From: Actinomycetota bacterium | GTDB taxonomy: Bacteria > Actinomycetota > Thermoleophilia > Gaiellales > Gaiellaceae | Reading direction: 5' to 3' | NCBI GenBank assembly: GCA_005884945.1 | Contig: VAYM01000142.1 | Coordinates: forward strand, 1-35,580 | Length of the DNA: 35,580 nucleotides | Shown: piece after piece, positions 7,166-35,580 of the stretch | How the letters are laid out: each line of letters starts with the position of its first letter | How positions within the stretch are numbered: position 1 is the first letter of the stretch | The notes under the pieces: generated by a model | The model's database searches: none | What the model was told of the DNA's origin: nothing | Seen by the model: the letters and a program-made list of their open reading frames with translations, nothing else | Program-made: the position numbers and the translations under genes

Positions 7166-8133
7166 GTGACCGACGAACGCGTGCTCGTCGTCAACGCCGG
7201 CTCGACGAGCTTGAAGGTCGGCGTCGTGTCGCGCGACGGCTCGGTCGAGACGATCGCGTCCATCGCCGATGCGCCCGACGACGTGCTCGGAGTCGCGCAC
7301 CGCGTCGTGCACGGCGGCTCCCGCTTCCGAGCGCCGGTGATCATCGACGCCGCCGTCGAGAAGGAGCTGCACACCCTGGCGGAGCTGGCGCCGCTGCACA
7401 ACCGCAGTGCGATCGCAGCGATCGACGACGCGCGTCGAACGCTCCCGGCGCTGCGTCACGTCGCTGTCTTCGACACGGCGTTCCACGCGACGATCCCCGA
7501 CGACGCTCCGTTCAGTGGGCTGCGGAGAACGTCCCGGTCGAGCGGCTCGTCGTCTGCCACCTCGGCGGCGGCTGCTCCGTCACCGCGGTGCATGCCGGAC
7601 GTTCGGTCGACACGACGATGGGCTACAGCCCGCTCGACGGCGTGCCGATGGCGACCCGCTCGGGCTCGATCGATCCGGAGATCCCGCTGCATCTCCTGCG
7701 CGCGGGACTGCTCGAGCTCGAGGAGCTGGAACAGGCGCTCGAGCGCGAGTCGGGCCTGCTCGGTCTCTCGGGGCGCTCGGCGCGCTACGAGGAGCTGCAG
7801 GCCGCCGGCGATCCTGCGGCGCGCCTCGCGCTCGCGGTGTTCGCGCGTCGCGTTGCGGGCGCGGTGGCGGCGATGGCGGCGTCGGTCGACGGCCTCGACG
7901 CGCTCGTCTTCACCGCCGGCGTCGGCGAGAACTCACCGCGGGCGCGCGCCGACGTCTGCGGACGACTTCGGTTCCTGGGCGTCGAGCTCGATGAGGTGCG
8001 CAACGAGTCCGCGCTTCCCGATGCCGAGATCGCGCGAGACGGCTCGGCGGTGCGGGTCGTCGTCCTGCGCGCACGCGAGGACATCGTCGCCGCCCGCGCG
8101 GCGCGAGCTCTGCTTACCCCGCGCGGCGCGTAA
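7166..8133 (+). pseudogene. ackA: Acetate kinase, internal deletion with frameshift
   Basis: Acetate kinase interconverts acetyl phosphate and acetate with ATP. The N-terminal half starts at GTG 7166 with VLVVNAGSTSLKVGV, then AHRVVHGGSRF and VFDTAFHATIPDDAPFS. Near base 7513 the reading frame changes: the rest (VQWAAENVPVERLVVCHLGG, RSVDTTMGYSPLDGVPMATR, FTAGVGENSPRAR) continues in another frame to 8133. Joining the two halves shows that roughly 25-35 residues are missing, including the family's RRYGFHGTSH-type motif with a catalytic His. So this is a frame-changing deletion, not a single-base error. No active kinase is expected unless the junction is an assembly artefact. No pta gene is adjacent. 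The 3' end overlaps the Crp-type regulator gene by 20 bases on the opposite strand. Confidence 0.85.
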
Positions 8134-9021: not shown

Positions 9022-9285
9022 ATGCGCCGGTTCGTCGAAAGCTCAACGGGATTCTTCGAAGAGCTCGATCGCCGTGCGAGCGCCGGGCTCGAGGTGTCAC
9101 TACTGTGGAGCCGGAGTGCGAGCAAGCTGGTCGTCTCCGTCGCCGACACGCTGACCGGCGAACGGTTCGAGCTCCCGGTCGCGCGTGAGGAAGCGCTCGA
9201 GGCGTTTCACCATCCGTTCGCGTACGCGGCGGATCACGGCATCTCGTGGGGCGTGTCCGGATGGAAGCTGGAGAGCCGCCGCTAG
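9022..9285 (+). CDS. Small protein of unknown function
   Basis: An 87-residue cytoplasmic protein with an excellent GGAAGGAG ribosome binding site six bases before its ATG, which makes it a secure gene despite its size. The middle (VSLLWSRSASKLVVSVADTL) looks like a beta hairpin, followed by TGERFELPVAREEALEAFHH, a pattern of small actinobacterial proteins with no assigned role. There is no signal peptide or membrane segment. It has its own promoter with a Crp-like site upstream and diverges from the Crp-type regulator, suggesting it belongs to that regulator's responses. Its last four bases overlap the convergent frameshifted gene. Confidence 0.75.
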   Translation: MRRFVESSTGFFEELDRRASAGLEVSLLWSRSASKLVVSVADTLTGERFELPVAREEALEAFHHPFAYAADHGISWGVSGWKLESRR

Positions 9286-10221
9286 GGCGTCGTGTCGTAC
9301 TCGCCGATCGCCGAGACCATCGCGGTCGCCGCCTTGTACATCGGAACCGCGTCGAGGCCGCGCTCGATCTTGAAGAACTCGCGCGCCGCGGGCGGGAGCG
9401 AGGCGAACGCGTAGCCGGAGCCGCCGCCGAGGACGGTTCCGTCCGCATCCATGACGACGGTCGAGAGCTCCGCGTTGCGGAGGATGAGGCTGGTGCTGTC
9501 GTTCGACACCTCCCCGTCGACCTCGCCGACGTACTCCGGGCGGAACGTAGATCTCCACGACGACCTCCAGCCGAGAGATCGGAGGAACGCCGCCGAAGAA
9601 GCTGAGGTCGTCGCCGAGCGCGAAGTCCTTCCCCGCCGGGATGCCCGAGAGATTGTTCGTCGCGGAGCCGACGAGCCGGTTGTCGGGACCGACGAAGTTG
9701 ACCAGTGTGTAGACGTCGAGCGCGTCCTGGTTCGGCGACGTGTTGCGAAGGATCACACCCCAGCTGATGCTGCCGCCGCCGTACTGCTCCTGCCGGATCG
9801 AGTAGCCGTCCTTGACGACGACGATCCGCGCGGGGATCACGGAGCCGACGACGAGAACCGTGCGCGACGCGCCGCCCGCGCGACCGCACGAGACGTTGAC
9901 GCGCGCGCGGCCCGGCTCGACGCCTCCGGAGATACGGAACTTCCACTTCGCCTGTCCGTTCGACACGCCGATCGGGCCGAGTTTCGGCTGGTACTGCCCG
10001 TCGGCGTAGCGCACGGCAAGCTGGCAAACAACCCCTGACGGACGGACGGAGACCCCCACGGTGATGAGGTCACGCTGCACCCAGCGCCGCGCAAGCGCCG
10101 TGAACTTCAGGCTCGTCGCGTGCGTCGGACTGAGCGTGCGCGCGCCTGCCGAGCCGACCGGGACGAGGAGGACAAGTCCGAGGGCGGCTGCGGCAAGGCG
10201 GCGCGAGCGGCGGTGACTCAC
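9282..10221 (-). pseudogene. Secreted protein with FxLYD-like domains, frameshifted
   Basis: The reading frame from GTG 10221 encodes a signal peptide (RRLAAAALGLVLLVPVGSAGA), a beta-rich domain and a segment ISWGVILRNTSPNQDALDVY with VNFVGPDNRLVGSATNN, which resembles an FxLYD-type beta sandwich. Near base 9540, after VVVEIYVPP, the frame is lost; the natural continuation EYVGEVDGEVSNDSTSLILR is in another frame and runs to the stop at 9282 with a second similar unit (VVMDADGTVLGGGSGYAF). A change of one base would restore a protein of about 312 residues. It may be a sequencing error or a real frameshift; the otherwise well-kept sequence favours an error or a recent event. Function is unknown; a cell-surface or lipoprotein-like role is likely from the export signal. 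Confidence 0.7.
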
Positions 10222-10271
10222 GTGGTCCGTGTCGGCGGCATGCGCGCGCCCCTCGTCCCTCGAACGAGTGA

Positions 10272-10838
10272 TCAGACGAGCGAGGCCAGAGCGGAAGGAA
10301 GCTCTTGCAAGGCGCCGATCACGACGTCTGCGTCCCTCAGGCGATCCCTGTCGTACGCGCCCGTCGTCAATGCCACACAGCGGGCGCCTGCCTCGTGAGC
10401 GGACGAGACGTCGAGCGGCGTGTCGCCGACGGCGACCGTGCGCTCGGCGGGCCAACCCCCTGCGCGTTCGCGCGCGAGCTCGAAGAGCGCAACTCGATCC
10501 TCGCGCTCGCACCCGAACGCACCCTCACCCTTCGGAAACAGGTCGGCCAGGCCGAGGCGGCGCAGGCGCGCTCGGGCGACTGCTTCCGGATTGCCGGTCA
10601 GCAGCGCGCGATGGGCCACGCGCCGGAGCGTTGCCGCTGCACCGTCGGGCATCTGCCAGTGGCTGGTATCCGCGTCGCGCAAGAGCTCGACGTAGCGATC
10701 GGGGAACAGCGCGCACCAGCGATCGAGCCCCGCGTCGATCTCCTCGTCGCTGAAACCGGCACCGCGAAGCGCGCGCCGCGTATGTGCGGTCGCCGTGTCA
10801 CCCGGCACGTCGGGACCGTCCGGCGCCGATCCCCACAC
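10272..10838 (-). CDS. HAD-family hydrolase, N-terminus missing
   Basis: A haloacid-dehalogenase-type phosphatase fragment of 188 residues. HAD motif II (ALLTGNPEAVARARL), the motif III region with Lys (FPKGEGAFGCE) and motif IV (VAVGDTPLDVSSAHEAG) are present, as in phosphoglycolate-phosphatase-like members. Motif I (DxDGT), which holds the nucleophile and normally occurs in the first 15 residues, is absent. The frame upstream of the GTG reads SNRDALLAVWG, which looks like cap-domain sequence of the same family, so the true N-terminus has been cut off where trpA now runs into it. As drawn it should be inactive. Its position after trpA suggests it was the last gene of the trp transcript. Confidence 0.75.
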   Translation of the reverse strand: MWGSAPDGPDVPGDTATAHTRRALRGAGFSDEEIDAGLDRWCALFPDRYVELLRDADTSHWQMPDGAAATLRRVAHRALLTGNPEAVARARLRRLGLADLFPKGEGAFGCEREDRVALFELARERAGGWPAERTVAVGDTPLDVSSAHEAGARCVALTTGAYDRDRLRDADVVIGALQELPSALASLV

Positions 10839-11566
10839 TGCGAGAAGCGCGTCGCGGTTCGACTCGCATCGAGCGCGTGGCGCAATGACGCAACATAGTT
10901 GCGGAGCGCGTCCGGTCCGTCCTCTGCGACCTGGACTGCGCGGGAGCCGACGACGATCCCGTCAGCGAGCGCGGCAGCGGCGCGCGCGTGGTCCGGCGTG
11001 GAGATCCCGAAGCCGGCGTAGAGCGGGACGCCGTCGCCGAACCGGCGTGCACGTTCGACGAGGCCGGCGAGCGCGGGGGAGACGTCGTCGCGTGCGCCCG
11101 TCGTGCCGGTCAGCGTCACGAGGTAGAGCCACCCGTCGGTCTGCTCGGCGGCAAGCCGGATGCGCTCGTCGGTCGACGTCGGCGCGACGAGCTGTACGCG
11201 TCGCAGCTCGGGTTGCTCCCCTGCGGGGAGGTCGGCGACGATCAGCGAGGTCGCGCCGGCGGTGCGCGCGTCGCTCGCGAACCGGTCCCAGCCGTATGCC
11301 TCGAGCAGCGACGCGTACGTCATCGGGACGAGCGGCGTCTCGGGCGCCAGCGCACGCGTCCGTGCGAGGCAGTCGAGACACGCGCGCGTGCGCATCCCGG
11401 CCGCGAGCGCGCGTTCGGCCGCGCGGCGAATCACGGGACCGTCAGCGAGCGGATCGCTGAACGGGAAGCCGAGCTCGACGATGTTCGCGCCGCCGTCCAC
11501 GGCCGCGCGTGCGAGCTCGGGCGTGTCGGCGCCGGCCATCAGGTAGATCACGAGCGCCTTTGTCAC
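10598..11566 (-). CDS. trpA: Tryptophan synthase alpha chain, 3' end fused out of frame into HAD gene
   Basis: TrpA cleaves indole-3-glycerol phosphate to indole and glyceraldehyde 3-phosphate. The TIM barrel starts at ALVIYLMAGADTPELARAAV; VELGFPFSDPLADGPVIRRA holds the catalytic Glu and Asp, followed by PMTYASLLEAYG and GFGISTPDHARAAAALADG, with phosphate-binding VGSRAV near the end. GTG at 11566, five bases after the trpB stop, is chosen. Family similarity stops near LRHALDA (about base 10866), close to the expected C-terminus. No stop follows; the frame continues about 90 residues across the HAD gene in a different frame to 10598. This means the trpA stop and HAD start were removed together. 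The barrel is nearly complete and may still work with an unnatural tail. Confidence 0.87.
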   Translation of the reverse strand: MTKALVIYLMAGADTPELARAAVDGGANIVELGFPFSDPLADGPVIRRAAERALAAGMRTRACLDCLARTRALAPETPLVPMTYASLLEAYGWDRFASDARTAGATSLIVADLPAGEQPELRRVQLVAPTSTDERIRLAAEQTDGWLYLVTLTGTTGARDDVSPALAGLVERARRFGDGVPLYAGFGISTPDHARAAAALADGIVVGSRAVQVAEDGPDALRNYVASLRHALDASRTATRFSQCGDRRRTVPTCRVTRRPHIRGARFAVPVSATRRSTRGSIAGARCSPIATSSSCATRIPATGRCPTVQRQRSGAWPIARC

Positions 11567-11571
11567 CGGTG

Positions 11572-12696
11572 TCAGCCGGCGCGATGCGCCAGGACTTCCT
11601 CGAGGTCTTTGTCGCCCCGTCCGCTCAGGCACACGAGGACGAGCTCCTCCTCGAGGTCGCGCGCGCGGGCCAGCGCATGCGCAGGCTCCAGCGCCGGGAT
11701 GATCCCCTCGCAGCGCGTGAGGTCGCGAAACGCGGCGAGCGCCTCCCCGTCCGTGGCGCGCACGTACTCCGCGCGGCCCGTGTCACGCAGGAACGCGTGC
11801 TCGGGGCCGACGCCGGGATAGTCGAGACCAGCCGAGATGGAGTGTGCGTCGACGATCTGGCCGTCGTCGTCCGCGAGGACGGACGAACGCGCGCCGTGCA
11901 GGACACCGGCGTGCCCGGTCCCGAGCGAGGCTGCCCCCGCCGCTTCGACGCCGACGAGACGGACATCGGTGTCGTCGACGAAGCCGGCGAACATGCCGAT
12001 CGCGTTCGACCCGCCGCCGACGCAGGCGACGACGACCCCGGGCAGGCGACCCTCCGCGTCGAGGAACTGCGACCGCGCTTCGCTCCCGATCACCGATTGC
12101 AGCTCGCGCACGATCTCCGGATACGGCGCCGGCCCGACGCACGAGCCGATCAGGTAGTGCGTCGTCTCCACGTTCGTGATCCAGTCGCGGATCGCCTCGC
12201 TCGTCGCCTCCTTCAAGGTCCGCGTGCCGAACTCGACCGGCCGAACCTCGGCGCCGAGGAGCTCCATGCGCTCGACGTTCGGACGCTGCCGGCGCATGTC
12301 TTCCTCGCCCATGTAGACCACGCACTCGTACCCGAAGCGCGCGCACACGGTCGCAGCGGCGACACCGTGCTGTCCCGCGCCGGTCTCGGCGACGATCCGC
12401 CGCTTGCCGAGCCTGCGAGCGAGCACCGCCTGGCCGAGCGCGTTGTTGAGCTTGTGCGCGCCGGTGTGCAGGAGGTCCTCGCGCTTCAAGTACAGCCGTC
12501 TGCCCGGGGCGAAGCGGTCGGCTCGCGTCAGGGGCGTCGGCCGCCCCGCGAACGTGCGGCCGAGCTCGTCGAGCTCGGAACGAAAGTCCGGGTCCGCCCG
12601 CGCCTCGCGCCAACCAGCCTCGAGCTCGTCGAGCGCCGGGACGAGCGTCTCCGGGACGTAGCGCCCGCCGTACGTGCCGTAGAGGCCGGTCGTCAT
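11572..12696 (-). CDS. trpB: Tryptophan synthase beta chain
   Basis: PLP enzyme joining indole and serine to give tryptophan. The 374-residue protein has [13 protein letters not shown] at the start, the PLP lysine in [20 protein letters not shown], the motif [14 protein letters not shown] with the catalytic Glu, the phosphate-binding [10 protein letters not shown], and [18 protein letters not shown] with SGRGDKDL at the end. The ORF track adds 29 residues; ATG 12696 is preferred because it forms an ATGA overlap with the trpCF stop and begins at the conserved N-terminus. It is of the TrpB1 class that pairs with TrpA. Confidence 0.96.
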
Positions 12697-13853
12697 CGTG
12701 CCGCCGCCACGAACGCGCGCACCTTCTCGTGATCCTTGATCCCAGGCTCGGTCTCCAGACGTGACGCGGCGTCGACCGCCCACGGCCGCGCTGCGCGGAT
12801 CGCCTCACGGACGTTGTCGGGACCGAGCCGCCCCGCCAGCATCACGCGGCCTTCCGTCGCGACCGCGCGCTGGAGGTGCAGCGGATCCTGCTCGTCCCAC
12901 GGCAGGTCGATCACCGTCACGACCGGCTCGCCGTCGCGCAACAGCACGGCTTCGCGCCCCCGGACGCGCCCCTCCTCGCGCTCGTAGAGCTGCGCGAGAT
13001 CGGCTTTCGTGTCTTTGACCTCGCCGACGAAGACGGCAACGCTGAGCCGGTCGTCCGGCACGTCGAGCACGTCGGGAGCGCGGCGCGGGCTCGCCTCGGC
13101 GAGGATGAACCCGAGCATGTCGGCGCCGGCCTCGACCGCGACGTCGACGTCCTGCTGTCGCGTGAGCCCGCACACCTTGACGAGCGGCCGCGACAGGAGC
13201 TCGGCGAGCTTCGCCGCGGGGTCCTCGGCCCGCATGAGCGCGGAACCGACGAGGATCGCGTTCGCTCCGGCGAGCTCAGCCTCGGCACCTTGCGCGCGCG
13301 TGTGAATGCCGCTTTCGGCGACGACGACCGCCTCGTGTCGCCCCATCCGCCCGACGAGGTCGAGCTGCGCGCGCCGGTCGACCTCGAACGTCGACAGGTC
13401 GCGTGCGTTCACGCCGATGACGCCGGCTTCGAGCGCCACGGCTCGATGAAGCTCGTCCGCGTCGTGCGTCTCGACGAGCGAATCGAGACCGAGCTCGCGG
13501 GCGTACGAGAGCATGGCGCGCGCCCGCGTGTCGTCGAGGTCGCGGAGCAGAAGCAGGACCGCGTCCGCGCCTGCGACCCTCGCCTGCAGGATCTGCAACT
13601 CCTCGCGGAAGAACCCCTTCGCGAGCAGCGGCACGGTCGTCGCCGCGCGCGCCGCTCGAAGATCGTCGAGCGAGCCGCCGAAACGCTCGTCGACGAGCAC
13701 CGAGACGGCCGACGCTCCTGCGCTCGAGAACTGCGCGGCCAGCTTCGCGGGATCGGCGTCCGGGCGCAGATCTCCCGCGGAGGGAGAGCGTCGCTTCACC
13801 TCGGCCACGGCGCTCAGGCCTGGTCCCGCCAGCGCGTCCCGGAAGCGGCCCAC
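12693..13853 (-). CDS. trpCF: Fused indole-3-glycerol phosphate synthase / phosphoribosylanthranilate isomerase
   Basis: Two consecutive barrels of tryptophan synthesis in one 386-residue chain. Residues 1-220 are Trp[15 protein letters not shown] holds the catalytic Lys, with [36 protein letters not shown] and [11 protein letters not shown] following. From about 223, [20 protein letters not shown] begins TrpF with its catalytic Cys; [15 protein letters not shown] and [14 protein letters not shown] lead to [20 protein letters not shown]. The TrpF part is compact at about 165 residues. Fusion of TrpC and TrpF is also known in E. coli, but here the order within the operon is different. The GTG start overlaps the trpD stop by one base. 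Confidence 0.94.
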
Positions 13854-22791: not shown

Positions 22792-23370
22792 GTGAGCGCA
22801 CGCAAGCGCGACGAGCCTGTTCGCCTCACGCGCATCTACACGCGCGGCGGCGACCGCGGCGAGACCTCGCTCGGCGACGGCTCTCGCGTCTCGAAGCTCG
22901 ACCGGCGCATCGCCGCGTTCGGCACCGTCGACGAGCTCAACTCACAGATCGGTTTCGTGCTTGCGGGCGACATCCCGGGCGACTTCCGACCCTGGCTCGA
23001 GCGCGTGCAGAACGACCTCTTCGACGTGGGCGCCGACCTCTCCGTCCCGTTCGCCGCCGGCGACCGGCTGCGCATCACGCAGTCCGCCGTGGACGAGCTC
23101 GAGCGTCTCTGCGACGAGCTCAACGCACCGCTCTCGCCGCTGAAGAGCTTTGTCCTCCCCGGCGGGACGGAAACGGCGGCGCGCCTTCACGTCGCACGCG
23201 CCGTCTGCAGGCGAGCCGAACGCGAGGCGCTCGCCGCGAACGCCGAGCACGGCGTCAACCCGCTCGCGCTGACGTACCTGAACCGGCTCTCGGACCTGCT
23301 CTTCATCGCCGCGCGCGCGGCGAACGCGGGCGCCGGCCGCGACGAGCCGCTCTGGCGCCCCGGCGGCTAG
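22792..23370 (+). CDS. Cob(I)alamin adenosyltransferase, PduO type
   Basis: Transfers the adenosyl group of ATP to cob(I)alamin to make adenosylcobalamin. The 192-residue protein has the ATP-binding N-terminus RIYTRGGDRGETSLGDGSRV, AAFGTVDELNSQIGFV, QNDLFDVGADLSVP, FVLPGGTETAARLHVARAVC, RRAER and NRLSDLLFIAARAAN, all typical of the family. GTG at 22792 places the conserved TRIYTRGGDRG near residue 13; the ORF track start at 22741 adds 17 residues and sits inside an inverted repeat. The cofactor serves mutases acting on methylmalonyl- or isobutyryl-CoA, which would fit the acyl-CoA genes upstream, but no mutase is in the window. Its end overlaps the convergent giant gene by four bases. Confidence 0.92.
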   Translation: MSARKRDEPVRLTRIYTRGGDRGETSLGDGSRVSKLDRRIAAFGTVDELNSQIGFVLAGDIPGDFRPWLERVQNDLFDVGADLSVPFAAGDRLRITQSAVDELERLCDELNAPLSPLKSFVLPGGTETAARLHVARAVCRRAEREALAANAEHGVNPLALTYLNRLSDLLFIAARAANAGAGRDEPLWRPGG

Positions 23371-26300
23371 GCCTTCCTCAGGAGCCGCGAAACGACCGCG
23401 GCGAGCACGGAATTCGGAATCGACCGGGGCAGCGCGATCGTCGCCCCGGCCTTCGCAGCCTTCGCCAGCGTCTTCGGGCTGCGCGAGAGCGCGACCATCC
23501 GCAGCCCGGGGAACACGGTGTGCAGGTCGCGGACGAACTGCACACCGAACTGATCGGCGTCCACGACCATCACCTGCACGCCGTTGCTGCCCGCGCCGGC
23601 CGCGTCGAACGCGCTGTCCTCGCCGGTCGTCTTGACGATCTTCGCGCTCTTCGTCCTCAGTGCGAGCTTCGGCGTGACGGCGGAGCCGGCGATCACGACC
23701 TGTACGGGACCGCCGCGGCCTCGGCCCGCGAAGAGCCGCACCCTGACGGTCCGCGTCACCGATTCGTGTCCGGAGACCGCCGTCCAGCGGATCGAGTAAA
23801 TGCCCGGCTGCCGCACCTGGGCGGGGAACCGGAGCCTGACGATCGTGCGTCCAGCCTTCATCGCGAAGCCCCACGTCGAGAGCTTCAGCAGTTGCGGGCT
23901 GTACAGAACTGCGGATACGCGCGCCTTGCGCGTGAGCAGGACGCGCGCCCCGAGCGTCCGCTTCGTCGCCCGCAGCTTCTTCGTGCTGACGACGCGGAAG
24001 ACGAGCTTCGTGAAGCCGGTCGTCCCCGGCGCGACCGTGACGTCGATCGCCGAGCCCGGAGCGGCAAGCACGAGGTTCGTCGGCCCGGTCACCGTACCCG
24101 GTCGGCCGACGCCGCCCCGCGTCACGTTCCCGAGCTTCAGGCCGGCGGCCTCGAGTGCCGATCGAGCCGCGTCGAGCGTCTTGCCGGTGAGCGCGGGCAC
24201 GCGCCTCAGCGTCGCGGTCGGCGGGCTCGTGTTCCCGGCGATGTCGGTTTCGTCGAGCGTGAACGTTCGCGAGTCGCTCGCCGTCCACGGGCCCACGTCC
24301 CCGCTCGTGCGGTCGACGCCGAAGTTCCCGACGCCGGCGCCGTTCGCGAGCACACGCACGAAGTCGTATGTGCCGCTGTTGTCGGTGCCCGGCGTCCAGG
24401 TGAGCGTCAGGTCGCCGCCGATCAGGAAGCCGAGCACGTTCGACGGCGCGGACGGCGCCTGCACGTCGCGCAGCACGCTGAACTCCGTGAGATGCAGCGT
24501 CCGCAGGAGGAAGCTCGTGCTGCTCGCCGTGAAGCCGTCGTCCCAGCCGTCGGGCAGCAGGTCGGTCGGCATGCGCCGAAGACCGCGCCAGGCGCCGTTC
24601 TCGAACGTGGCCGGCACGAGGCCCTTGCCGGACGCGCGCAGCAGGATCTCAATCGGCTTGAGGAAGCGGTGGACGGGCTGGCCGCTCAGTGCCCAGAAGG
24701 CGGTCACATTGACGACCTCGGAGCCGGGCGCGTAGCCGTTCGCGAGCGACGGCGCGCGCGTCGTCTCGAGCCGGATCACGATCCAGTCGTCGCCGTTCGG
24801 CGCCCACGCGCCCGCCGGCATCGTCACCGTGGCGAAGCCGTCCGCGGAGGTCACCGACGTCGACGAGCTCGAGCTCGACCCGCCCTCGACCGGCGGCGGC
24901 GTCCCGCCGGAGCTCGGCGTGAAGACGGTGAAGCTCACGCGGAAGGACGAGGACTTCCCGGTCGGGTCGGAGAGCCGGCCCGAGAGCGTGTGGAGGCCGG
25001 TCGCGAGCGGGCCGGTGTTGTAGAGGATGTGCGTTCCGGAGACGACCGGCGCCACCGTGCCCGCACCGTCGAGCCCCACGTTCGTCGGCGTCGCGGGCTC
25101 GTTCGTGACGAGCTCGATCGAGCTCGCGGAGCTGACGGTCGACCCGTCCGCGGGCATCGAGGAGACGAGGACCGGCGCGGTGTTGTCGACGCGGATGTTG
25201 GGGCGTGTGTCCTGCGACGTGTTGCCGACCGAGTCGGTCACGACCGCGCGCAGGTCGTAGAGGCCGTCCGCGACCGCCGTCGTGTCGAATGCGACGCTCC
25301 ATGGCGCAGCCGTGTCGATGCCGATCTGCTTCCACGAGTTCGCGCCGGCCGGGCTCGCGAGGAACGTCACCTGCGTCGCGCCGCTTCCGGTCACCGTCGC
25401 GTTCAGCGTCACCGTTCCGGCGAGCGTCGCGCCCGGGTCGGCGAGCGCGATCGTCGGCGCGGTCGCGTCGACGTGGACGGTCACCGTCGCGCCGGTGAAC
25501 GTGTTGCCGGCACGGTCGGTGATCACCGGCTGCAGGTCGTAGTCGCCCGTGGTCAGACCTGTCGTGTTCCAGCTCCCGTCGAACGGAGCGCTGGTCGAAG
25601 TCGAGACCGTCGAGAAGGAGCCGCCGCCGGTCGGACGCATCTCGTACCTCACGGACGCGACGCCCGAGCCGGAGTCGGAAGCAGACACGTGCAACGGCAC
25701 GGCCGAGCCGCCGACGGTCGCGCCCGCCGCCGGCGCCGTCAGCGAGCCGGTCGGCGGCGTGTTGTCCACTCGCCGGTTCGCGATCACGGCGCTCGTGCCC
25801 GTGTTGCCGATCCCGTCGGTCGCAACCACGCGGAGGTCGTAGAGGCCGTCGGCAAGCGTCGTCGTGTCGAGTTGTGCCGAGAACGGTGCGGCGGTGTCCG
25901 TCGCGATCGTCGTCCACGTCCCGCTACCCGCGTCCGCGCGCTGGAAGTCGACCGACACCGTGTCCGGGTCGGAGGTCGCAGTCAGCGTCACGGTGCCGCT
26001 GAGGCTCGCGCCCGGATCGCTCAGCGTCGGGACGGGCGAGCGGTTGTCGACCGTGATCGTGCGGACGGCGGACGTCGTGCTGTTGCCGGCCATCCACGTC
26101 GTGGAGTACGGCGCCGTGGTGTCCGTGTCGAGCGGCGAGCCGTTCACGAGGAACTGCACGGATGCGATCGGCGACGTGACGTCTGCCGCCGAGGCCGTGA
26201 TCCCGAGGTTGCCGGAGACGACCGCGCCCTGCGTCGGCGAGCCGACGACCGCGACGTTCGGCGGCGTGTTGTCGACGATCTTGTCCGCGAGCGTCGTGGC

Positions 26301-29300
26301 GGTCGTGTTGTTCGCGTTGTCGGTGACGAGGATCTGCAGGTCGTAGTGACCGTCCGGAACGGCCGTCGTGGCCCAGTTCACCGTGTAGGGGGCCGGCCCC
26401 GTCGTGTCGGTGCCGATCGTCGTCCACGTCGTCGAGCCGTGATCGGCGTACTGGAACGCGACCGACTTGATGCCGGCGCCGGTGTCGGCCGGGCTCGCGC
26501 TGAGCGTCACCGTGCCGCGCAGGTAGTCCGCCGCCGAGCAGGACGGACAGGCAGGCGGCGTCGCGTCGATGAGCACCGTCGCGCTCTTGACCTGCTCGAC
26601 GTTGCCGACGTTGTCGGCCGAGAAGTACGCGATCGTGTGCGCGCCGTCGTTCGACCCGTCGGACGGCGCCGGGATCGTCACCGTCGAGCCGACCGTGTAC
26701 GGGCCGCCGTCGACGCTGTACTCAGTCACGTTCACGCCCGACCCGGCGTCGGTCGCCGTCAGGTGGACCGTGACGTCGGACGCCTGCCAGCCGGAGGGCG
26801 CGTCGTCGGTCGTCACCGGCTTCGTGTTGTCGATCGTGTCGCCGACCGGTGCCGAGGTCGTCGTGTTGCCCGCGTGGTCGGTGACGATCACGTGGAGCAT
26901 CAGGTTGCCGTCCGGCATGGAGGCCGTGTTCAGCGTCGCGCCGGTGTTCGCCCACGTCGAGCCGCCGTTCGTCGAGTACTCGTAGGTGACGGAGGCGACG
27001 CCCGAGCCGTCGGTCCCGTTCGGGTCGTCGGTGACCGACGTCAGGTGGATCGTGCCGCGCACGAAGCCGCCCGCGGTGCTCGGGTCGTTCATCGTCGCGG
27101 TCGGCGGCGTGTTGTCGACCAACCGGCCGGTGACCGGAATCGACGTCGCCTGGTTTCCTGCGACGTCCACCGCAACGGTCTGGAAGTCGTAGTGGCCGTC
27201 CGGCAGGGTCGTCGTGTCCAAAGACGCCGAGTACGGAGCGGAGGCGTCGGTGCCGATCGTCGTCCACGTGCTGCTGCCGGCAGCCGCGACCTGGAAGTCG
27301 ACGTGGTCGACGCCGGAGCCGCTGTCCGCCGCGGAGCCGGTCAGCGTCACGGTCTGGCGCAGGTTCGCACCCGGATCGTCCTGGCTCGTCGTCGGCGGCG
27401 TGTTGTCGATCCGTACGTTCGTCACCGGTGCGGAGCCGGTCACGTTGCCGGCGACGTCGGTCACGACGACCCGGAGCTGGTAGACGCCGTCCGTGATCCC
27501 GACGGTGTTCCAGTTGATCGTGTCGAAGGGTGCCGAGGCCAGCGTGCCGATCGTCGCCCACGTCGTCCCGTCCGCCGAGTACTCGTAGCTGACGGACGCG
27601 ATTCCGGACGCGTAGCCGTTCGAGGTCGGGTCGCTCTCGGAGGACGTCAACGGTACGACGCCGCGCACGTTCGCGCCGGGGTTGTTGAGCGTTCCCGCCG
27701 GAAGCGTCGTGTCGCGATGCCACGACCACGTCGACGGCGTCTGATCCGTGTTGCCGGCCGGGTCGGTGGCGCGAACCTGTGCGGTGTGGAGCCCGTCGGT
27801 GAGGCCCGGGAACGTGTGCGGGCTCGTGCATGCGCCCCAGGCGCCGCCGTCGATCCGGCACTCGAACGTCGAGCCGGGCTCGCTCGAGACGAACGCAAAC
27901 GTCGCGGGCGCGTTGCTCGGATCGGCCGGATAGCTCGTGACGAGCGTGTCCGGCGGCGTCGTGTCGATGCTGACGTTCTCGATCGTCGACGCGGGGTGGC
28001 CGGCGTTGTCCGTCGCGACCGCCTCGAGCGCGTGGTTGCCGTCGCTCGGGACGTTCCAGCTGACGTTGTACGGCGCGGTCGTGTCGACGCCGAGCGAGGT
28101 GAACGTCCCGGTTGCGCAGTCGACGCTCGTGTTCGAGCACTCGAAGAACTCGACGGACGCGACGCCGCTGCCGCCGTCCGTTGCCGTGGCGCCGAACGTC
28201 GTCGGGCTCGGGAAGGACGCGTTGATGCTTGCCGGCGGCGCGGTGATCGTCACCGACGGCGGGATGCTGTCGACCAGGATGTTCGAGTTGACGACGTGTG
28301 CGGAGTTCCCCGCGTCGTCCGTGGCGCTCGCGCGCACGTCGTACCGGCCGTCTCCCGCGGGCAGCGCGGTCGTGTTCCAGGACGACGGCGTCGGCGTCCA
28401 CGTCGCGTCGCTGTGGAGCTTGTACTCGAACGTGACGGGCGGGCTTGCCGGCGAGGCGTCACTCGCGCTCGCGGTGAGCGGGACGATGCCGCTGACGAAG
28501 GCGCCGCCGGCCGGGCTCGAGAAGGTCAGGGACGGCGGCGTGTTGTCGACGCGCGCCGTGATCGGCGCGGAGGTGGTGGAGTTGCCGGCCGCATCCGTCG
28601 CCGTCACGCGCAGGTCGTAGAGGCCGTCGATCACGGCGGTCGTGTCCCACAGCGCGGTCTGGCTCGAGAACGCACCGCCGTGCGGCGCGATCTCGTAGGA
28701 GACGCTCGCGACACCGGAGCCGCCGTCGCTCGTGTTCGACGTGAGCGTGACCAAGCCGTGCACCGGATTGCCGGGGTTCGTCATCGTCGCGCTCGGGGCT
28801 ATGTTGTCGATGCGGCGGTTCGTCACCGGGACCGGCGCCGTCACCGAGTAGGGGGCCGTCGTGTCGCTTGCGATCGTCGTCCAGGAGCCGCCGCCCGAGG
28901 GCTTGCGCTGGAACGCGACGCTCGCGACGCCCGCGCCGCCCGTGTCTGAGGCGGAGGCGCTGAGCGTGATCGTCTGGCGCAGGTTCGTGCCCGGATCGCC
29001 GATCGAGCTCGTCGGCGCGGCAGTGTCCGACTTGACGACGCTTCCGCTCGTCGCCACGGCCACGTTGCCCGCGTCGTCCGCGACGCTGTACCGGTAGACG
29101 GCGCAGTGGCCGGACGCGACCGTGTCGGGGCTCGAGACGGCTGACCACCCGCCGAAGCCGCTGCACGTGTCGGTAGCGAGTGTGCCCGTCTGGCGCTCGA
29201 GCACTCCGGTGGATGCATCGACGTCCGGGTCGGGGCCGTTGTTCGTCGTGATCGTGACGGCGCCGCTCGCGTAGCCGTTCACGTACGAGACCGTGACGCC

Positions 29301-32300
29301 CGATGGCGCGGTGCGGTCGATCGAGATCGTCCTGACCTCGGCGCCGGTGTTCCCCGCTTGGTCGGTCGCGACGGCGCGGATCGCCTTCGGCCCGTCGAAG
29401 GCCGGCGTCGTCCACGAGCCGCTGTACGGAGCGGTCGGGTCGGTCGCGAAGACGCTCCACGTGCCCGTGGAGCAGTTTGCGCTCGCGTTCGAGCACTCGT
29501 AGAAGACGACGGACGCGACGTCGCTGTCCGGCGTCGACGCCGTGACCGTGTACGTCGTCGGATCCGACGCATTGATGTACTGGATCGGCGCCGTGATCGT
29601 GACGCTCGGCGCGGTCAGGTCGATCGTCCAGGTGGCCGACGCGGGCGACGGGTCGATCGAGCCCGCGCCGTTCTTCGCGCGGGCGCTGAACGTGTGCGTG
29701 CCGGCGAGGAGCGTGCCGAGCGTGTCCGGGCTGGAGCACGCCGACCACGATCCGCCGTCGAGCTTGCACTCGAACGTCGCCGGGCTCTGATCGGCGCTGA
29801 ACGTGAACGTCGGCGTCGGGTTGTTCGACGGATCAGCCGGGCCGGAGTCGATCGTCGTGTTCGGGACGGTGGAGTCGACCGTCCACGTGTAGCTCGCGGG
29901 CGTCGCATCCGTGTTGCCGGCGGCGTCGGTCGCGCGCACGTCGAACGTGTGCGACCCGTCCACGAGGCCGGAGAGCGAGTGCGGGCTCGTGCACGGCGCC
30001 CACGACCCGCCGTCGACGCGGCACTCGAATGTCGAGCCGGTCTCGGACGACGAGAACTGGAACGACGGCGCCGTGTCGTTGTCCGGGTTCGGCGGCTGGA
30101 CGTCGATCGTCGTCTGCGGCGCCGTCAGGTCGACCGTCCACGTGCGGCTCGCCGGTGTCGCGTCCGTGTTGCCCGCCTGGTCGGTCGCGCGGACGTCGAA
30201 CGTGTGGCTCCCCTCGGCGAGCGCGGGCGCGATCGTGTGCGGGCTGGAGCAGGGCGCCCACGAGCCGCCGTCGATCCGGCACTCGAAGGTCGAGCCGCTC
30301 TCGGTCGAGGTGAAGGAGAAGCTCGGGGCCGTGTCGTTCGACGGATTCGTCGGTGCGGACGTGATCGAAGTGTCCGGCGCGGCCGTGTCGACCGTCCAGG
30401 TGTAGGACGCGGGGCTCGCGTCGGTGTTGCCCGCGGCGTCCGTGGCGCGGACAGCGAACGTGTGCGGGCCGTCGGCGAGGCCGGAGAGCGAGTGCGGGCT
30501 CGCGCACGGCGCCCACGAGCCGCCGTCGACGCGGCACTCGAACGTCGAGCCGGTCTCCGTCGACGCGAAGGAGAAGCTCGGCGCCGTATTGCTGGACGGG
30601 TCGGCCGGATGCGCGGTGATCGACGTGTCCGGTGCGGTCGTGTCGACCGTCCACGTGTCGCTTGCGGGGCTCGCGTCGGTGTTGCCGGCCGGGTCGGTGG
30701 CGCGGACGTCGAACGTGTGGCTCCCTTCGCCGAGTGCGGGGGCGATCGTGTCCGGGCTCGAGCAGGACGACCACGAGCCGCCGTCGACGCGGCATTCGAA
30801 CGTCGAACCGGTCTCGCTGGAGCTGAACAGGAACACCGGCGACGTCGCGTTGGACGGGTTCGCCGGATGCGCGTCGATCGCGGTGTCGGGCGCCGTGTTG
30901 TCCACCTCGCGGCTCGTCACCACGGCGGAGGCGGCGCTGTTCCCGGCGAGGTCGGTCGTCACGACGCGCAAGTCGTAGAGACCGTCCGCGACGGCGGTCG
31001 TGTCCCAACTCGCCGTGTACGGGGCGGTCGTGTCGGTCCCTATCGTCGTCCACGTGCCGGCGCCGCCGGGCGACCGCTGGAAGACGACCTGCTGGACGTC
31101 CGACTCGGCGTCGCTCGCGCTCGCGCTGAGGCTCACCGTCGCATGGAGCGGCGAGCCGGGATTCGTGAGCGTGCTCGTCGGCGCGCCCGAGTCGACCTTC
31201 GCCGTCACCTGCACGGCCGCGGATTGGTTGCCGACGTTGTCGGACTCGACGAACGTGTAGCGGTAGCAATGGCCGTTCGAGACGGCGGTGTCGGGGCTCG
31301 TGAAGGTGCCGGCGTCCGGCGTGAAGCCGCTGCAGCTCCCGTTCGCGAGCGTGCCGGTCTCGCGCGTGACCGTGCGCGACGAGGCGTCGAGGCCGGAGCC
31401 GCCGCCGTTGTCGGTGCCGTCGGCGAGCGAGAACGTGACCGAGCCGCCGGAGTAGTACGGCGCGCCTGCCCCCGTCAGCGTGATCGTCTGGCCGCTCGGC
31501 GCTGTGGTGTCGTCCTTCAGCGTGATCGTGTCGGTGCCGTCGTTTCCGGCCGCGTCCGTCGCAGTCACCGTCTGCGCGCCCGGCTCGGCCGCGCCGGACG
31601 ACCATGTGTAGGCCGCCGGAGACGAGTACGGAGCCGACGTGTCGGCGCCGCCGGTCGAGCCGCTCCACCCGGACGTTCCGGACACGTCTGGGAAAGCGAC
31701 CTGCGCGACGGCCGTGTCCGTATCGAACGCGGTCGAGTTGAGGCGGAACGAGCCGGACCCGGTCGACCGGAAGAACTGCGTCTTCGTGCCGGCGTCGTAG
31801 TACTGGTTCCCGCTGCCGGTCAACTCGGTGGGCGCGGTGACAGCCGCGGTCGGCGCCGCGGTGTCGACCTTCGCGACGGCGCTGACGCCCGCGGAGACGT
31901 TGCCGACGCGGTCCGCGATCGCGAACGTGTAGCGGTAGCAGTGGCCGCCCGTGACGGACGTGTCGGGGCTCGTGTACGTGCCTGCGTCGGCGCTGAACGT
32001 GCCGCAGCTGTCGCCGTTCAGCGTCGAGCTCTCGCGAGTCACCGTCCGCGTCGAGGTGTCGAGGCCGGACTCGGAGTCGGCGCCGTCGGTGAGCGAGAAC
32101 GAGACCGACGCCGCCCTGTAGTACGGCGAGTTCGGACCGGTGAGCGTGATCCCCTGACCCGTCGGCGCGGTCGAGTCGGCGGCGATCGCGATCGTCGCGC
32201 TGCCGGGGATGCCCGCCGCGTTCGTCGCCGTGATCGAGCGTGCGCCCGGCGCCGTCGCGCCGCTCGTCCACGTGTAGTCGACCGGCGAGCCGAACGGCGA

Positions 32301-35300
32301 GGACGTGTCCGCACCGCCCGTCGAGCCGTTCCAGCCCGAGACGGCCGACACGTTCGGGAACGAGACGTTGTCGATGCCGCTCTCGGCATCCGAGGCACTC
32401 GCGTTGAGCGTGAACGATCCGGAGCCCGACGGCCGGAACCACTGCGTCTGCGTCGCGGAGTCGTAGTACTGGCTGCCGGCGCCGGCCACTTCGGTCGGCA
32501 CGGCGACGGACACGCCCGGCGCGTCGGTGTCGACCTTCCCCACGGTCTGGACCGGCGCGGAGACGTTGCCGACGTTGTCCGCGATCGTCAACGTGTAGCG
32601 GTAGCAGTGCGCGCTCGACACCGCGGTGTCGGGGCTGCTGAACGTCCCGGCGTCGGCCGTGAAGCCGGAGCACGTGCCGTTCGCGAGCGTTCCGGTCTCC
32701 CGTGTGACGGCGCGCGACGAGGCGTCGAGGCCGGAGCCCGCCGTCGGCGCGGCCGGGTCGGCGGCGATCGCGATCGCCTCGGAGCTCGAGTTGCCCGCCT
32801 CGTCCGTCGCCGTGACGTTCTCGGCGCCGGGCGCGCTCGCACCCGAGGTCCACGAGTAGCTCGCGGGCGACGCGTACGGGCTGGACGGATCGGTCCCGCC
32901 CGTCGAGCCGCTCCAGCCGGACGTCGCGGAGACGTCCGGGAAGGCGACGCCCGTCACGCCTGTGTCCGAGTCGGACGCGGTCGCGTTGAGCGTGAACGTG
33001 CCGGAGCCTGCCGGCCGGAAGTACTGCGTCTTCGTCCCGGCGTCGTAGTACTGGTTCGCACCGCCTGCGACCTCGGTCGGCCCCGTCACCGACACGTTCG
33101 GCCCGGCGGTGTCGACCTTGGCCGTCGTCGTCACTGTCGACGAGACGTTGCCGACGTTGTCCGCGACGGTGAACGAGTAGCGGTAGCAGTGGCCGCCGGA
33201 GACGGTCGAGTCCGGGCTCGAGTACGTGCCGGGGTCGGCGGTGAACGTGCCGCAGGAATCGCCGCTCAGCGGCGCCGACTCGCGCGTCACCGTGCGCGAC
33301 GACGTGTCGACACCGGAGCCGCTGCCGTCGTTGCCGTCGCCGAGCGAGAACGTCACCGCGCCGCCGAAGTACGGAGCGGTCGCGCCGGTGAGCGCGATCG
33401 TCTGGCCGGTTGGCGCGGACGAGTCCGGCGTCAGCGCGAACGGCGCGCTCGACGTCGCGCCGGCGCCGTTCGTCGCGACGACGTCGTGCGAGGCGGCGTC
33501 GTTCGTCGAGGCGTTCCACGTGTAGTCCATCCGGTACGGCGCGGACGCGGTCGTCCCGCCGCCGGTCACGCCTGCGACGGACGGGAAGGCGACGCCCGTG
33601 ACGCCCGTCTCCGCGTCGCTCGTCGCAGCCGTCACGCGGAACGTGCCGCTGCCGCCCGGCTTGTAGAAGAGGCTCGTCCCCGAGACGTACTGACCTGCGC
33701 TCGCAGGATTCTGCGCGAGCGTCAGCGTCGGGCCCGTCGGCGGCGTGCCGTCGAGCAGGATCGGTTGTGTGCCGACGGCCTCCTCGTTCCCGAGGTTGTC
33801 GTACGCGCGGAACTTGATCGTCGTCGTCGTGTTGACGTTGATCGCGCCGAGATAGTCGGATCCGTTGACGGGGCTCGGATCGCTGCCGTCCGTCGTGTAA
33901 CGGATCGTCTGCACGCCGGTGCCCGTGCCGTCGTCGGCGGACAGGGTCACAACTACGGGCGAGGAGGTGTAGTACGTGCCGTTGAGGCAGGTCGCCCCGT
34001 TGCACTGGATCGTCGTCGCCGGCGCGCTCGTGTCGTTCGTGAACGTCAGCGCCGGAGCGGCCGCGGTGTTCCCGGCACCATCGGCCGCGGTCACGACCTC
34101 GGTCGGCGTTGAGCTGGTGCCCGCGTTCCAGCTGAACGTGCTCGAGTCGTACGGCCCGCCGGCGGGTGTGGAGACGGTCGACGCCGTGTGCGACCAGCCG
34201 CTCGTCGTTCCGCCGAGCGCGGCGGTCGCGCTCGAAGCGGGGGCCGACTCGGCGTCGGACACCGCGTTCGTCAGCTTGAAGCTGCCCGCCGCGGAGCCGC
34301 GGTAGAAGACGGTGTTGCCGACCTTGTTCGCGTTGCCGGTCACAGACCAGAGCGTCAGCGAGCTCGTCTTGCCGCCGCTGAGCGTGACGTTCGTCCAGGA
34401 GCCGGAGTACGAGCCGCATGTCCCGTTCGAGAGGTTCGCGACGTCGCGTTGCACCTGGCTCGACCCGGACGCGAGCCCGGAACCGGAGTCCGAGCCGCTG
34501 TTCAACGTCACCGTTACGGACAGGCTCGTGTAGTAGCCGGCGGTCACTGTCGGGGCAGTGACCGCCGGCGCGCTCGAGTCGTCAGTGAAGGTCAGCGCCG
34601 TCGCGGCGGTCGTGTTCCCCGCCGCGTCCGCACCGGTCACGACCTCCGTCGGCGACGAATTCGTGCCTGCGTTCCAGCTGAAGGTGTTCGAGTCGTAGGG
34701 CCCGCCGGCCGGCGTGGACACCGTCGAAGGCGTGTGCGACCAGCCGCTCGTCGTCCCGCCGAGCGCCGCCGTCGCGCTCGACGCCGGGCCGGACTCCGCG
34801 TCCGACACCGCGTTCCTCACCTTGAAGCTGCCGGCGGCGGCACCGCGGTAGTAGACGGTCGTCCCGCTCATGTACGCACCGCCCGACACGGCCGAGAGCG
34901 ACAGCGAGTTCGCCGGCCCGGCCGTATCGACTTTCGCGACGTTCGACGCGGTCGAAGCGCTCTGGTTGCCGACCCGGTCGGAGAGCAGCTCGCGGTACTC
35001 GTAGCAGTGGCCGCTGAGGACGTTGGTGTCGTTCCCGCCGACGAGCGCGATCGTCGACCACGAGCCGCTGAAGCTTCCGCACGCGCCGTTCGCGAGGTTT
35101 GCGACGTCGCGCTGGACGATGCTCGTCGTCGCGTCGACGCCGGACCCCGAATCCGTTCCGCCCGCAGGCGTCACCGGAACCGAGAGTGTCGTGTAGTAGC
35201 CGGCCGTCACGCTCGGCGCGGTCACGGACGGCGGCGTCGTGTCCGCAACGACGGTGAACGGCGTCGAGGCCGAGGTAAGAGCCCAGCCGTTCGTCGCGGT

Positions 35301-35580
35301 CACGTCCTGGCTACCGGACGGAGCGGCCGCGGCCGCGCTGAACGTGTAGGCGCCGGTGTACGGCGAGCTCGAGTCGGCGCCGCCGCCGGTCCAGCCGGAG
35401 CCGAGCCCGCTCGCGAAGGTGAGGTGGTCGATACCGGACTCCGCGTCGGACGACGTGCCGGTGACGGTGAAGCCGCCCGCGGCGCCCTGGCGGACGTACA
35501 CGGTCGACCCCGTTGCGCTTGCGTTCGCGAACGAGCCGAACGAGAGCGACGGCGCGGACGGCGCGGTCGTGTCGTTGACC
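23367..35580 (-). CDS. Giant secreted Ig-repeat protein, 5' end outside window
   Basis: One uninterrupted frame gives at least 4,070 residues; the frame is still open at the right edge, where repeat sequence (VNDTTAPSAPSLSF) continues, so the true start and export signal lie beyond. Nearly all of it is Ig-like units ending DNTPP or VDTAAP, with SGVASVSYE, DGLYDLRVVATDAAGN and similar strand motifs. In order: N-terminal units with GGPYDSNTFSWNAGT; a chitobiase-C-like unit (IRYTTDGSDPS); four 194-224-residue double units with paired Cys; five tandem 85-residue units with FECRVDGGSW; many 85-90-residue Ig units; a ZU5-like region (HLTEFSVLRD); PASTA; a FlgD-like Ig unit; and a receiver-like tail. 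Pairs of conserved Cys suggest disulfides outside the cell. No LPxTG or C-terminal membrane helix is seen. An adhesin or fibre is likely. Confidence 0.88.
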   Translation of the reverse strand, partial: VNDTTAPSAPSLSFGSFANASATGSTVYVRQGAAGGFTVTGTSSDAESGIDHLTFASGLGSGWTGGGADSSSPYTGAYTFSAAAAAPSGSQDVTATNGWALTSASTPFTVVADTTPPSVTAPSVTAGYYTTLSVPVTPAGGTDSGSGVDATTSIVQRDVANLANGACGSFSGSWSTIALVGGNDTNVLSGHCYEYRELLSDRVGNQSASTASNVAKVDTAGPANSLSLSAVSGGAYMSGTTVYYRGAAAGSFKVRNAVSDAESGPASSATAALGGTTSGWSHTPSTVSTPAGGPYDSNTFSWNAGTNSSPTEVVTGADAAGNTTAATALTFTDDSSAPAVTAPTVTAGYYTSLSVTVTLNSGSDSGSGLASGSSQVQRDVANLSNGTCGSYSGSWTNVTLSGGKTSSLTLWSVTGNANKVGNTVFYRGSAAGSFKLTNAVSDAESAPASSATAALGGTTSGWSHTASTVSTPAGGPYDSSTFSWNAGTSSTPTEVVTAADGAGNTAAAPALTFTNDTSAPATTIQCNGATCLNGTYYTSSPVVVTLSADDGTGTGVQTIRYTTDGSDPSPVNGSDYLGAINVNTTTTIKFRAYDNLGNEEAVGTQPILLDGTPPTGPTLTLAQNPASAGQYVSGTSLFYKPGGSGTFRVTAATSDAETGVTGVAFPSVAGVTGGGTTASAPYRMDYTWNASTNDAASHDVVATNGAGATSSAPFALTPDSSAPTGQTIALTGATAPYFGGAVTFSLGDGNDGSGSGVDTSSRTVTRESAPLSGDSCGTFTADPGTYSSPDSTVSGGHCYRYSFTVADNVGNVSSTVTTTAKVDTAGPNVSVTGPTEVAGGANQYYDAGTKTQYFRPAGSGTFTLNATASDSDTGVTGVAFPDVSATSGWSGSTGGTDPSSPYASPASYSWTSGASAPGAENVTATDEAGNSSSEAIAIAADPAAPTAGSGLDASSRAVTRETGTLANGTCSGFTADAGTFSSPDTAVSSAHCYRYTLTIADNVGNVSAPVQTVGKVDTDAPGVSVAVPTEVAGAGSQYYDSATQTQWFRPSGSGSFTLNASASDAESGIDNVSFPNVSAVSGWNGSTGGADTSSPFGSPVDYTWTSGATAPGARSITATNAAGIPGSATIAIAADSTAPTGQGITLTGPNSPYYRAASVSFSLTDGADSESGLDTSTRTVTRESSTLNGDSCGTFSADAGTYTSPDTSVTGGHCYRYTFAIADRVGNVSAGVSAVAKVDTAAPTAAVTAPTELTGSGNQYYDAGTKTQFFRSTGSGSFRLNSTAFDTDTAVAQVAFPDVSGTSGWSGSTGGADTSAPYSSPAAYTWSSGAAEPGAQTVTATDAAGNDGTDTITLKDDTTAPSGQTITLTGAGAPYYSGGSVTFSLADGTDNGGGSGLDASSRTVTRETGTLANGSCSGFTPDAGTFTSPDTAVSNGHCYRYTFVESDNVGNQSAAVQVTAKVDSGAPTSTLTNPGSPLHATVSLSASASDAESDVQQVVFQRSPGGAGTWTTIGTDTTAPYTASWDTTAVADGLYDLRVVTTDLAGNSAASAVVTSREVDNTAPDTAIDAHPANPSNATSPVFLFSSSETGSTFECRVDGGSWSSCSSPDTIAPALGEGSHTFDVRATDPAGNTDASPASDTWTVDTTAPDTSITAHPADPSSNTAPSFSFASTETGSTFECRVDGGSWAPCASPHSLSGLADGPHTFAVRATDAAGNTDASPASYTWTVDTAAPDTSITSAPTNPSNDTAPSFSFTSTESGSTFECRIDGGSWAPCSSPHTIAPALAEGSHTFDVRATDQAGNTDATPASRTWTVDLTAPQTTIDVQPPNPDNDTAPSFQFSSSETGSTFECRVDGGSWAPCTSPHSLSGLVDGSHTFDVRATDAAGNTDATPASYTWTVDSTVPNTTIDSGPADPSNNPTPTFTFSADQSPATFECKLDGGSWSACSSPDTLGTLLAGTHTFSARAKNGAGSIDPSPASATWTIDLTAPSVTITAPIQYINASDPTTYTVTASTPDSDVASVVFYECSNASANCSTGTWSVFATDPTAPYSGSWTTPAFDGPKAIRAVATDQAGNTGAEVRTISIDRTAPSGVTVSYVNGYASGAVTITTNNGPDPDVDASTGVLERQTGTLATDTCSGFGGWSAVSSPDTVASGHCAVYRYSVADDAGNVAVATSGSVVKSDTAAPTSSIGDPGTNLRQTITLSASASDTGGAGVASVAFQRKPSGGGSWTTIASDTTAPYSVTAPVPVTNRRIDNIAPSATMTNPGNPVHGLVTLTSNTSDGGSGVASVSYEIAPHGGAFSSQTALWDTTAVIDGLYDLRVTATDAAGNSTTSAPITARVDNTPPSLTFSSPAGGAFVSGIVPLTASASDASPASPPVTFEYKLHSDATWTPTPSSWNTTALPAGDGRYDVRASATDDAGNSAHVVNSNILVDSIPPSVTITAPPASINASFPSPTTFGATATDGGSGVASVEFFECSNTSVDCATGTFTSLGVDTTAPYNVSWNVPSDGNHALEAVATDNAGHPASTIENVSIDTTPPDTLVTSYPADPSNAPATFAFVSSEPGSTFECRIDGGAWGACTSPHTFPGLTDGLHTAQVRATDPAGNTDQTPSTWSWHRDTTLPAGTLNNPGANVRGVVPLTSSESDPTSNGYASGIASVSYEYSADGTTWATIGTLASAPFDTINWNTVGITDGVYQLRVVVTDVAGNVTGSAPVTNVRIDNTPPTTSQDDPGANLRQTVTLTGSAADSGSGVDHVDFQVAAAGSSTWTTIGTDASAPYSASLDTTTLPDGHYDFQTVAVDVAGNQATSIPVTGRLVDNTPPTATMNDPSTAGGFVRGTIHLTSVTDDPNGTDGSGVASVTYEYSTNGGSTWANTGATLNTASMPDGNLMLHVIVTDHAGNTTTSAPVGDTIDNTKPVTTDDAPSGWQASDVTVHLTATDAGSGVNVTEYSVDGGPYTVGSTVTIPAPSDGSNDGAHTIAYFSADNVGNVEQVKSATVLIDATPPACPSCSAADYLRGTVTLSASPADTGAGIKSVAFQYADHGSTTWTTIGTDTTGPAPYTVNWATTAVPDGHYDLQILVTDNANNTTATTLADKIVDNTPPNVAVVGSPTQGAVVSGNLGITASAADVTSPIASVQFLVNGSPLDTDTTAPYSTTWMAGNSTTSAVRTITVDNRSPVPTLSDPGASLSGTVTLTATSDPDTVSVDFQRADAGSGTWTTIATDTAAPFSAQLDTTTLADGLYDLRVVATDGIGNTGTSAVIANRRVDNTPPTGSLTAPAAGATVGGSAVPLHVSASDSGSGVASVRYEMRPTGGGSFSTVSTSTSAPFDGSWNTTGLTTGDYDLQPVITDRAGNTFTGATVTVHVDATAPTIALADPGATLAGTVTLNATVTGSGATQVTFLASPAGANSWKQIGIDTAAPWSVAFDTTAVADGLYDLRAVVTDSVGNTSQDTRPNIRVDNTAPVLVSSMPADGSTVSSASSIELVTNEPATPTNVGLDGAGTVAPVVSGTHILYNTGPLATGLHTLSGRLSDPTGKSSSFRVSFTVFTPSSGGTPPPVEGGSSSSSSTSVTSADGFATVTMPAGAWAPNGDDWIVIRLETTRAPSLANGYAPGSEVVNVTAFWALSGQPVHRFLKPIEILLRASGKGLVPATFENGAWRGLRRMPTDLLPDGWDDGFTASSTSFLLRTLHLTEFSVLRDVQAPSAPSNVLGFLIGGDLTLTWTPGTDNSGTYDFVRVLANGAGVGNFGVDRTSGDVGPWTASDSRTFTLDETDIAGNTSPPTATLRRVPALTGKTLDAARSALEAAGLKLGNVTRGGVGRPGTVTGPTNLVLAAPGSAIDVTVAPGTTGFTKLVFRVVSTKKLRATKRTLGARVLLTRKARVSAVLYSPQLLKLSTWGFAMKAGRTIVRLRFPAQVRQPGIYSIRWTAVSGHESVTRTVRVRLFAGRGRGGPVQVVIAGSAVTPKLALRTKSAKIVKTTGEDSAFDAAGAGSNGVQVMVVDADQFGVQFVRDLHTVFPGLRMVALSRSPKTLAKAAKAGATIALPRSIPNSVLAAVVSRLLRKA
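23370..23579 (-). other. Receiver-like C-terminal domain of the giant protein
   Basis: The last 70 residues read VQVMVVDADQFGVQFVRDLH, then PGLRMVALSRSP, AGATIALPRS and a final helix. This is the beta1-alpha1 and beta4-alpha4-beta5-alpha5 outline of a response-regulator receiver, with the acidic VDAD, a Ser in place of Thr and Arg-Ser in place of Lys-Pro. The segment that should carry the phospho-acceptor Asp is absent. Phosphorylation is therefore not expected. Confidence 0.55.
24030..24201 (-). other. PASTA domain of the giant protein
   Basis: VPALTGKTLDAARSALEAAG with LKLGNVT and a final AIDVTVAPG follows the PASTA pattern (VP-L-G---A---L---G) found in extracellular parts of serine/threonine kinases and penicillin-binding proteins, where it binds muropeptides or wall. 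It may hold the giant protein to peptidoglycan. Confidence 0.75.
29610..30900 (-). repeat. Five tandem 85/86-residue Ig units
   Basis: Five copies carry FECR(V/I)DGGSW with two Cys, and HTFDVRATDAAGNTD. Measured at the ECR codons the spacings are 258, 255, 258 and 255 bases. Copies 1 and 3 have IAPAL and copies 2 and 4 have LSGL, so the array is a duplicated 513-base dimer plus one divergent fifth copy. A sixth single copy lies apart near 27700-27960. Confidence 0.8.
31200..33440 (-). repeat. Four double-domain units in the giant gene
   Basis: Each unit joins a Cys-containing module (SSRTVTRE, GHCYRYTF) to a module with NQYYDAGTKTQ and SGWSGSTGG. Measured at the CYRY codons the spacings are 582, 666 and 672 bases. 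The short one has lost 28-30 residues in frame near 32750, where DPAAPTAGSGLDASS skips the usual TGQTITLTG segment. Confidence 0.75.
33770..33990 (-). other. Chitobiase C-terminal-like module in the giant protein
   Basis: GTYYTSSPVVVTLSADDGTG, QTIRYTTDGSDPSPVNGS and TTTTIKFRAYDNLGNEE match the small beta module (CHB_HEX_C type) found at the ends of chitobiases and in large surface proteins. It is a structural or carbohydrate-associated unit, and no catalytic domain accompanies it here. Confidence 0.65.

Follow-up and report, generated by a model that had tools for sequence, protein, structure and literature searches.

An apparent trpA–HAD gene fusion in a Gaiellaceae metagenome-assembled genome is probably a collapsed assembly gap

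The available text of PMC7111523 documents unmarked local assembly errors for IDBA-UD, and describes local assembly and scaffolding errors of this type in which consensus is joined without read support, giving broken or incorrect protein-coding genes in public metagenome-assembled genomes (MAGs). That text describes no characteristic size for the lost segment, whereas the losses reported below cluster at 53–104 bp. IDBA-UD assembly, with scaffolding errors corrected afterwards, was also used in a grassland-soil study (PMC6784897) whose sample names have the same form as those of two relatives considered here. The stretches fetched from G005 (contig C63) and G008 (contig C99) are identical to VAXU01000156.1 and VAXG01000077.1, and VAXU01 and VAXG01 are soil MAGs with the sample names 14_0927_12_40cm and 14_1009_16_30cm respectively. 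Judging from these names, the G005 and G008 MAGs apparently come from that study and were assembled with IDBA-UD, a reading that covers these two relatives only.

The locus itself is best compared with the intact trpA–HAD pair of relatives G004–G009, in which the gene for a HAD-superfamily hydrolase starts at or near the trpA stop codon. The window (the whole stretch of DNA analysed, 35,580 nucleotides, equal to the complete contig C165) is like this pair in its gene order and TrpA C-terminus, but differs from it in having no trpA stop, no HAD start and no DVDGT motif. The genome to which it belongs, G000, comprises 2.86 Mb in 198 contigs and is 85.7% complete. The features at the junction are as follows.

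10865..11575, minus strand: trpA (tryptophan synthase alpha), whose body runs intact to LRHALDA but which has no stop codon of its own; Pfam PF00290 at 1.2e-59, TIGR00262 above its cut-off
10856..10876, minus strand: junction of GCGCTCGATGCG with AGTCGAACC, at which the window lacks 66 bp found in G005 and 69 bp found in G004 and G006
10598..10864, minus strand: apparent TrpA tail of 88 codons, which translations and coding-frame segmentation assign to HAD gene DNA in the wrong frame
10272..10864, minus strand: HAD-superfamily hydrolase gene with neither start codon nor DVDGT motif and about 22 residues short at the N-terminus; intact in G004–G009

Translation of the window gives a minus-strand trpA frame spanning about 11575 to 10598–10600, where a TGA closes it. 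The TrpA body ends in '...NYVASLRHALDA' near 10865, at residue 237 of this translation; TIGR00262 scores 175 bits against a cut-off of 102, placing residues 6–230 on model positions 10–247 of 256, so that the protein qualifies as TrpA along its whole body. The Pfam Trp_syntA domain covers residues 6–233 only of the extended frame, and the 88-residue tail has no similarity to TrpA. Coding-frame segmentation of the window puts the frame switch at 10865/10866, and the break point on the minus strand lies at about 10864/10865. The HAD frame, which terminates at 10272, can be identified no further upstream than 'ESNRDALLAVWG' at about 10864, its first recognisable residues being '(E)SNRDALLAVWGSAPDGPDVPGDTATAHTRRAL', that is, '(E)SNRDALLAVWG'. 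The remaining HAD domain is above the cut-offs of Pfam PF13242, PF00702, PF12710 and PF13419. Because the best-placed of the Pfam HAD models aligns only from position 43 onward, the DxDG(T) nucleophile motif expected at the N-terminus is absent from the assembled sequence of the window, and the protein as assembled does not qualify as a functional HAD hydrolase. We found no second copy of the trpA/HAD region elsewhere in the genome. The original prediction, that trpA lacks its stop and the HAD gene its DxDGT segment at the same point, is thus borne out, coordinates included, by frame translations, Pfam and the relatives.

In all seven of the same-genus relatives in which the junction could be read, trpA stops at this point and the HAD gene follows at once ('LVLFDVDGTL...'), so that stop, start and FDVDGTLLLTHDEVYVEA fall exactly at the break point of the window. 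The relatives' TrpA proteins terminate there too, in LRSALDA*, LRQAIDAT*, LREAVDSVVTN* or a similar sequence, and their HAD genes start at the trpA stop or a few bases from it, with '..LVLFDVDGTLLLTHDEVYVEANRDAL..' and a nucleophile segment reading FDVDGTLLL; in the intact G006 homologue the HAD models align from position 1–3. The window is shortest by comparison with G003 (87 bp, from a weaker match), is 75–78 bp short of G007, G008 and G009, and differs by the 66 bp given above from G005, its nearest relative. As the HAD start nearly touches the trpA stop, one missing segment takes out both, as the original prediction had it. A natural trpA–HAD fusion or a programmed frameshift was considered and rejected, since in the relatives trpA is terminated, the HAD gene has a start of its own and there are 66–78 bp of additional sequence. 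The corresponding locus of G002 (L033 on contig C72, HAD gene at about 8340) retains the trpA stop and DVDGT and has lost another 143 bp of the HAD gene, directly after FDVDGTL. Elsewhere in the window TrpC and TrpF form one open frame (12693–13853, minus strand; Pfam IGPS and PRAI); unlike the trpA/HAD junction this fusion looks genuine, because several relatives share the continuous frame.

Two further losses are found in the same contig.

7166..8088, plus strand: acetate kinase gene (ackA), 70 bp missing, frame change at about 7507–7520; PF00871 in both halves, in two frames
9282..10260, minus strand: conserved protein of unassigned family, 62 bp missing, frame change at about 9545–9550; G006 homologue intact in one frame

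The ackA spacing is 78 in two relatives and 8 in the window. Together with trpA/HAD, the breaks in ackA (about 7510) and in the conserved protein (about 9548) place three losses within 3.4 kb, and all three were found by coding-frame segmentation without help from the relatives. The contig also carries a very long repetitive open frame (about 23370–35570, minus strand), whose internal repeats align with one another at about 30–35% identity and whose homologues in G009 and G008 run to 2312 and 3133 residues before contig ends cut them off.

The segmentation, written for this analysis, was run on about 963 kb of the MAG and flagged 23 strong same-strand breaks (17 in 705 kb and 6 in 258 kb); one more, in a glycoside hydrolase, was picked up with a looser setting. 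Not every flagged site is genuine, at least one being a normal metG start, and we set aside metG with an upstream start (L067 of G008) and position 6491 of L234 in G000, which looks normal. The measured set likewise leaves out the G000 flags in L086, L088, L095, L103 and L113, at L054:4208 and at L234:1091. Losses measured against relatives are listed below, with gene names read from the sequence where there was no Pfam or NCBIfam result.

acetate kinase, 70 bp; conserved protein, 62 bp; trpA/HAD, 66 bp
enoyl-CoA hydratase, 80 bp
adenine deaminase, 83 bp
winged-helix protein, 56 bp (44 bp against other homologues)
MFS transporter, 76 bp
glycosyltransferases, 98 and 74 bp
UbiA, 86 bp
ammonia-lyase, 68 bp
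glycoside hydrolase, 98 bp
LivH-type permease, 53 bp (from match coordinates)
TrkA-type protein, 104 bp (from match coordinates)
regulator, about 85 bp (from match coordinates)

These 15 losses in unrelated genes range from 53 to 104 bp with a mean of 77 and an SD of 15 (in order 53, 56, 62, 66, 68, 70, 74, 76, 80, 83, about 85, 86, 98, 98 and 104 bp). A sixteenth, of about 119 bp in a reductase-like gene, aligns poorly and was kept out of the statistics; it and the losses of 53, about 85 and 104 bp were the last four measured, at a time when the size band was already known. At most of the sites the relatives agree on one spacing, for example 99 nt in nine loci for UbiA and 81 in four for enoyl-CoA hydratase. 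The breaks demonstrated in the sampled sequence include none in a universally essential gene. A count of internal stops proved uninformative as a measure of genome decay, because the segmentation runs through stops between neighbouring genes in the same frame. The genome also includes contigs of just 276–379 bases (L045, L079, L105 and L239), a length not usual in a MAG. They are possibly remnants of scaffold splitting, and at least two of them read as N.

The pattern of loss tracks the assembly and not the gene. The missing sequence is kept at conserved length in close relatives, and the signature recurs in unrelated genes of the same assembly, while G008, of the same genus, has no genuine break in 266 kb, its single flag being a normal metG start. 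In G005 four flags occur in 129 kb and the losses, where measured, come to 113 and 67 bp; G002 gives two flags in 126 kb in addition to its HAD gene, with a measured loss of 143 bp. In G007 a DUF488-like gene (L024, 16643, plus strand) has an apparent small frameshift with no obvious missing segment.

Marked gaps provide further insight. The single N-run inside readable sampled sequence of G000 consists of 32 N in an xdhC-like gene (contig C177; L098, 3917–3948). The corresponding interval is 120 nt in 13 homologous loci and 129 in one, as against 33 in G000, leaving this gap 87 bp short; in G002 a run of 171 N in a cytochrome c gene is 120–159 bp short. Marked gaps are therefore wrong-sized in the same direction, with only one such run in G000, and since the N-runs fall short of their homologous loci by about the unmarked loss, scaffold gaps in these assemblies are under-sized by roughly the length missing at unmarked joins.

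Losses of comparable size affect many unrelated genes in this draft genome, and one of its scaffold gaps, marked with N, is too short to the same extent. On these sequence comparisons we propose, with a probability of roughly 0.9, that the trpA/HAD junction is an artefact in which the assembly collapsed a gap, and not a real feature. Two assembled pieces, one ending with the last codons of trpA and the other picking up the HAD gene about 22 codons after its start, would have been joined end to end, skipping about 66–70 bp of unassembled sequence with no Ns inserted. The simplest reading is that all losses, marked and unmarked, are joins across unassembled sequence, with Ns omitted wherever the gap estimate came out at zero or below; the assembler step responsible is our inference, as is the expectation that the genes would prove intact in the reads. 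Less readily accommodated are that the unmarked joins carry no N when one gap carries 32, and that the losses keep clear of sizes under about 50 bp.

A real deletion of about 66 bp in the lineage, removing the trpA stop and HAD start to leave an extended TrpA and a dead phosphatase gene, would fit a junction that is clean, with both flanks conserved coding sequence right up to the break and possibly about 2 bp of microhomology, and could be tolerated, as TrpA is complete except for its stop. We nevertheless regard it as very improbable, as it needs dozens of independent losses of 53–104 bp in unrelated genes, three of them within 3.4 kb, none of which is seen in relative G008, and it would make the match to the deficit of the marked scaffold gap a matter of chance. 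That the junction is real as one of dozens of such deletions, in a lineage-wide wave driven by an unknown process, seems less credible still. We give equally little weight to a deletion arising in library preparation, by polymerase jumping on structured GC-rich templates, or to a minority strain picked by the assembler, in spite of the GC-rich genome and the little or no shared sequence at the junctions; library deletions are expected in a minority of molecules, and would not shorten the marked N gap too.

A collapsed gap thus remains our preferred explanation, and the narrow size band together with the N-gap shortfall offers a way to spot such collapses without reads. For annotation, apparent fusions, truncations and lost catalytic motifs involving about 50–140 bp in this MAG should not be taken as pseudogenes or new fusions, a caution that extends to some degree to G002 and G005. 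The single missing segment of the original prediction stands, and the biology it implied does not, the loss being the assembly's: a TrpA with a 90-residue foreign tail and a dead phosphatase in the cell, which it had offered conditionally, find no support given the same-size losses in unrelated genes and an N gap equally short. Most likely, to judge from the relatives, the living organism has a normally terminated trpA and a HAD gene complete with start and DVDGT motif, as they do.
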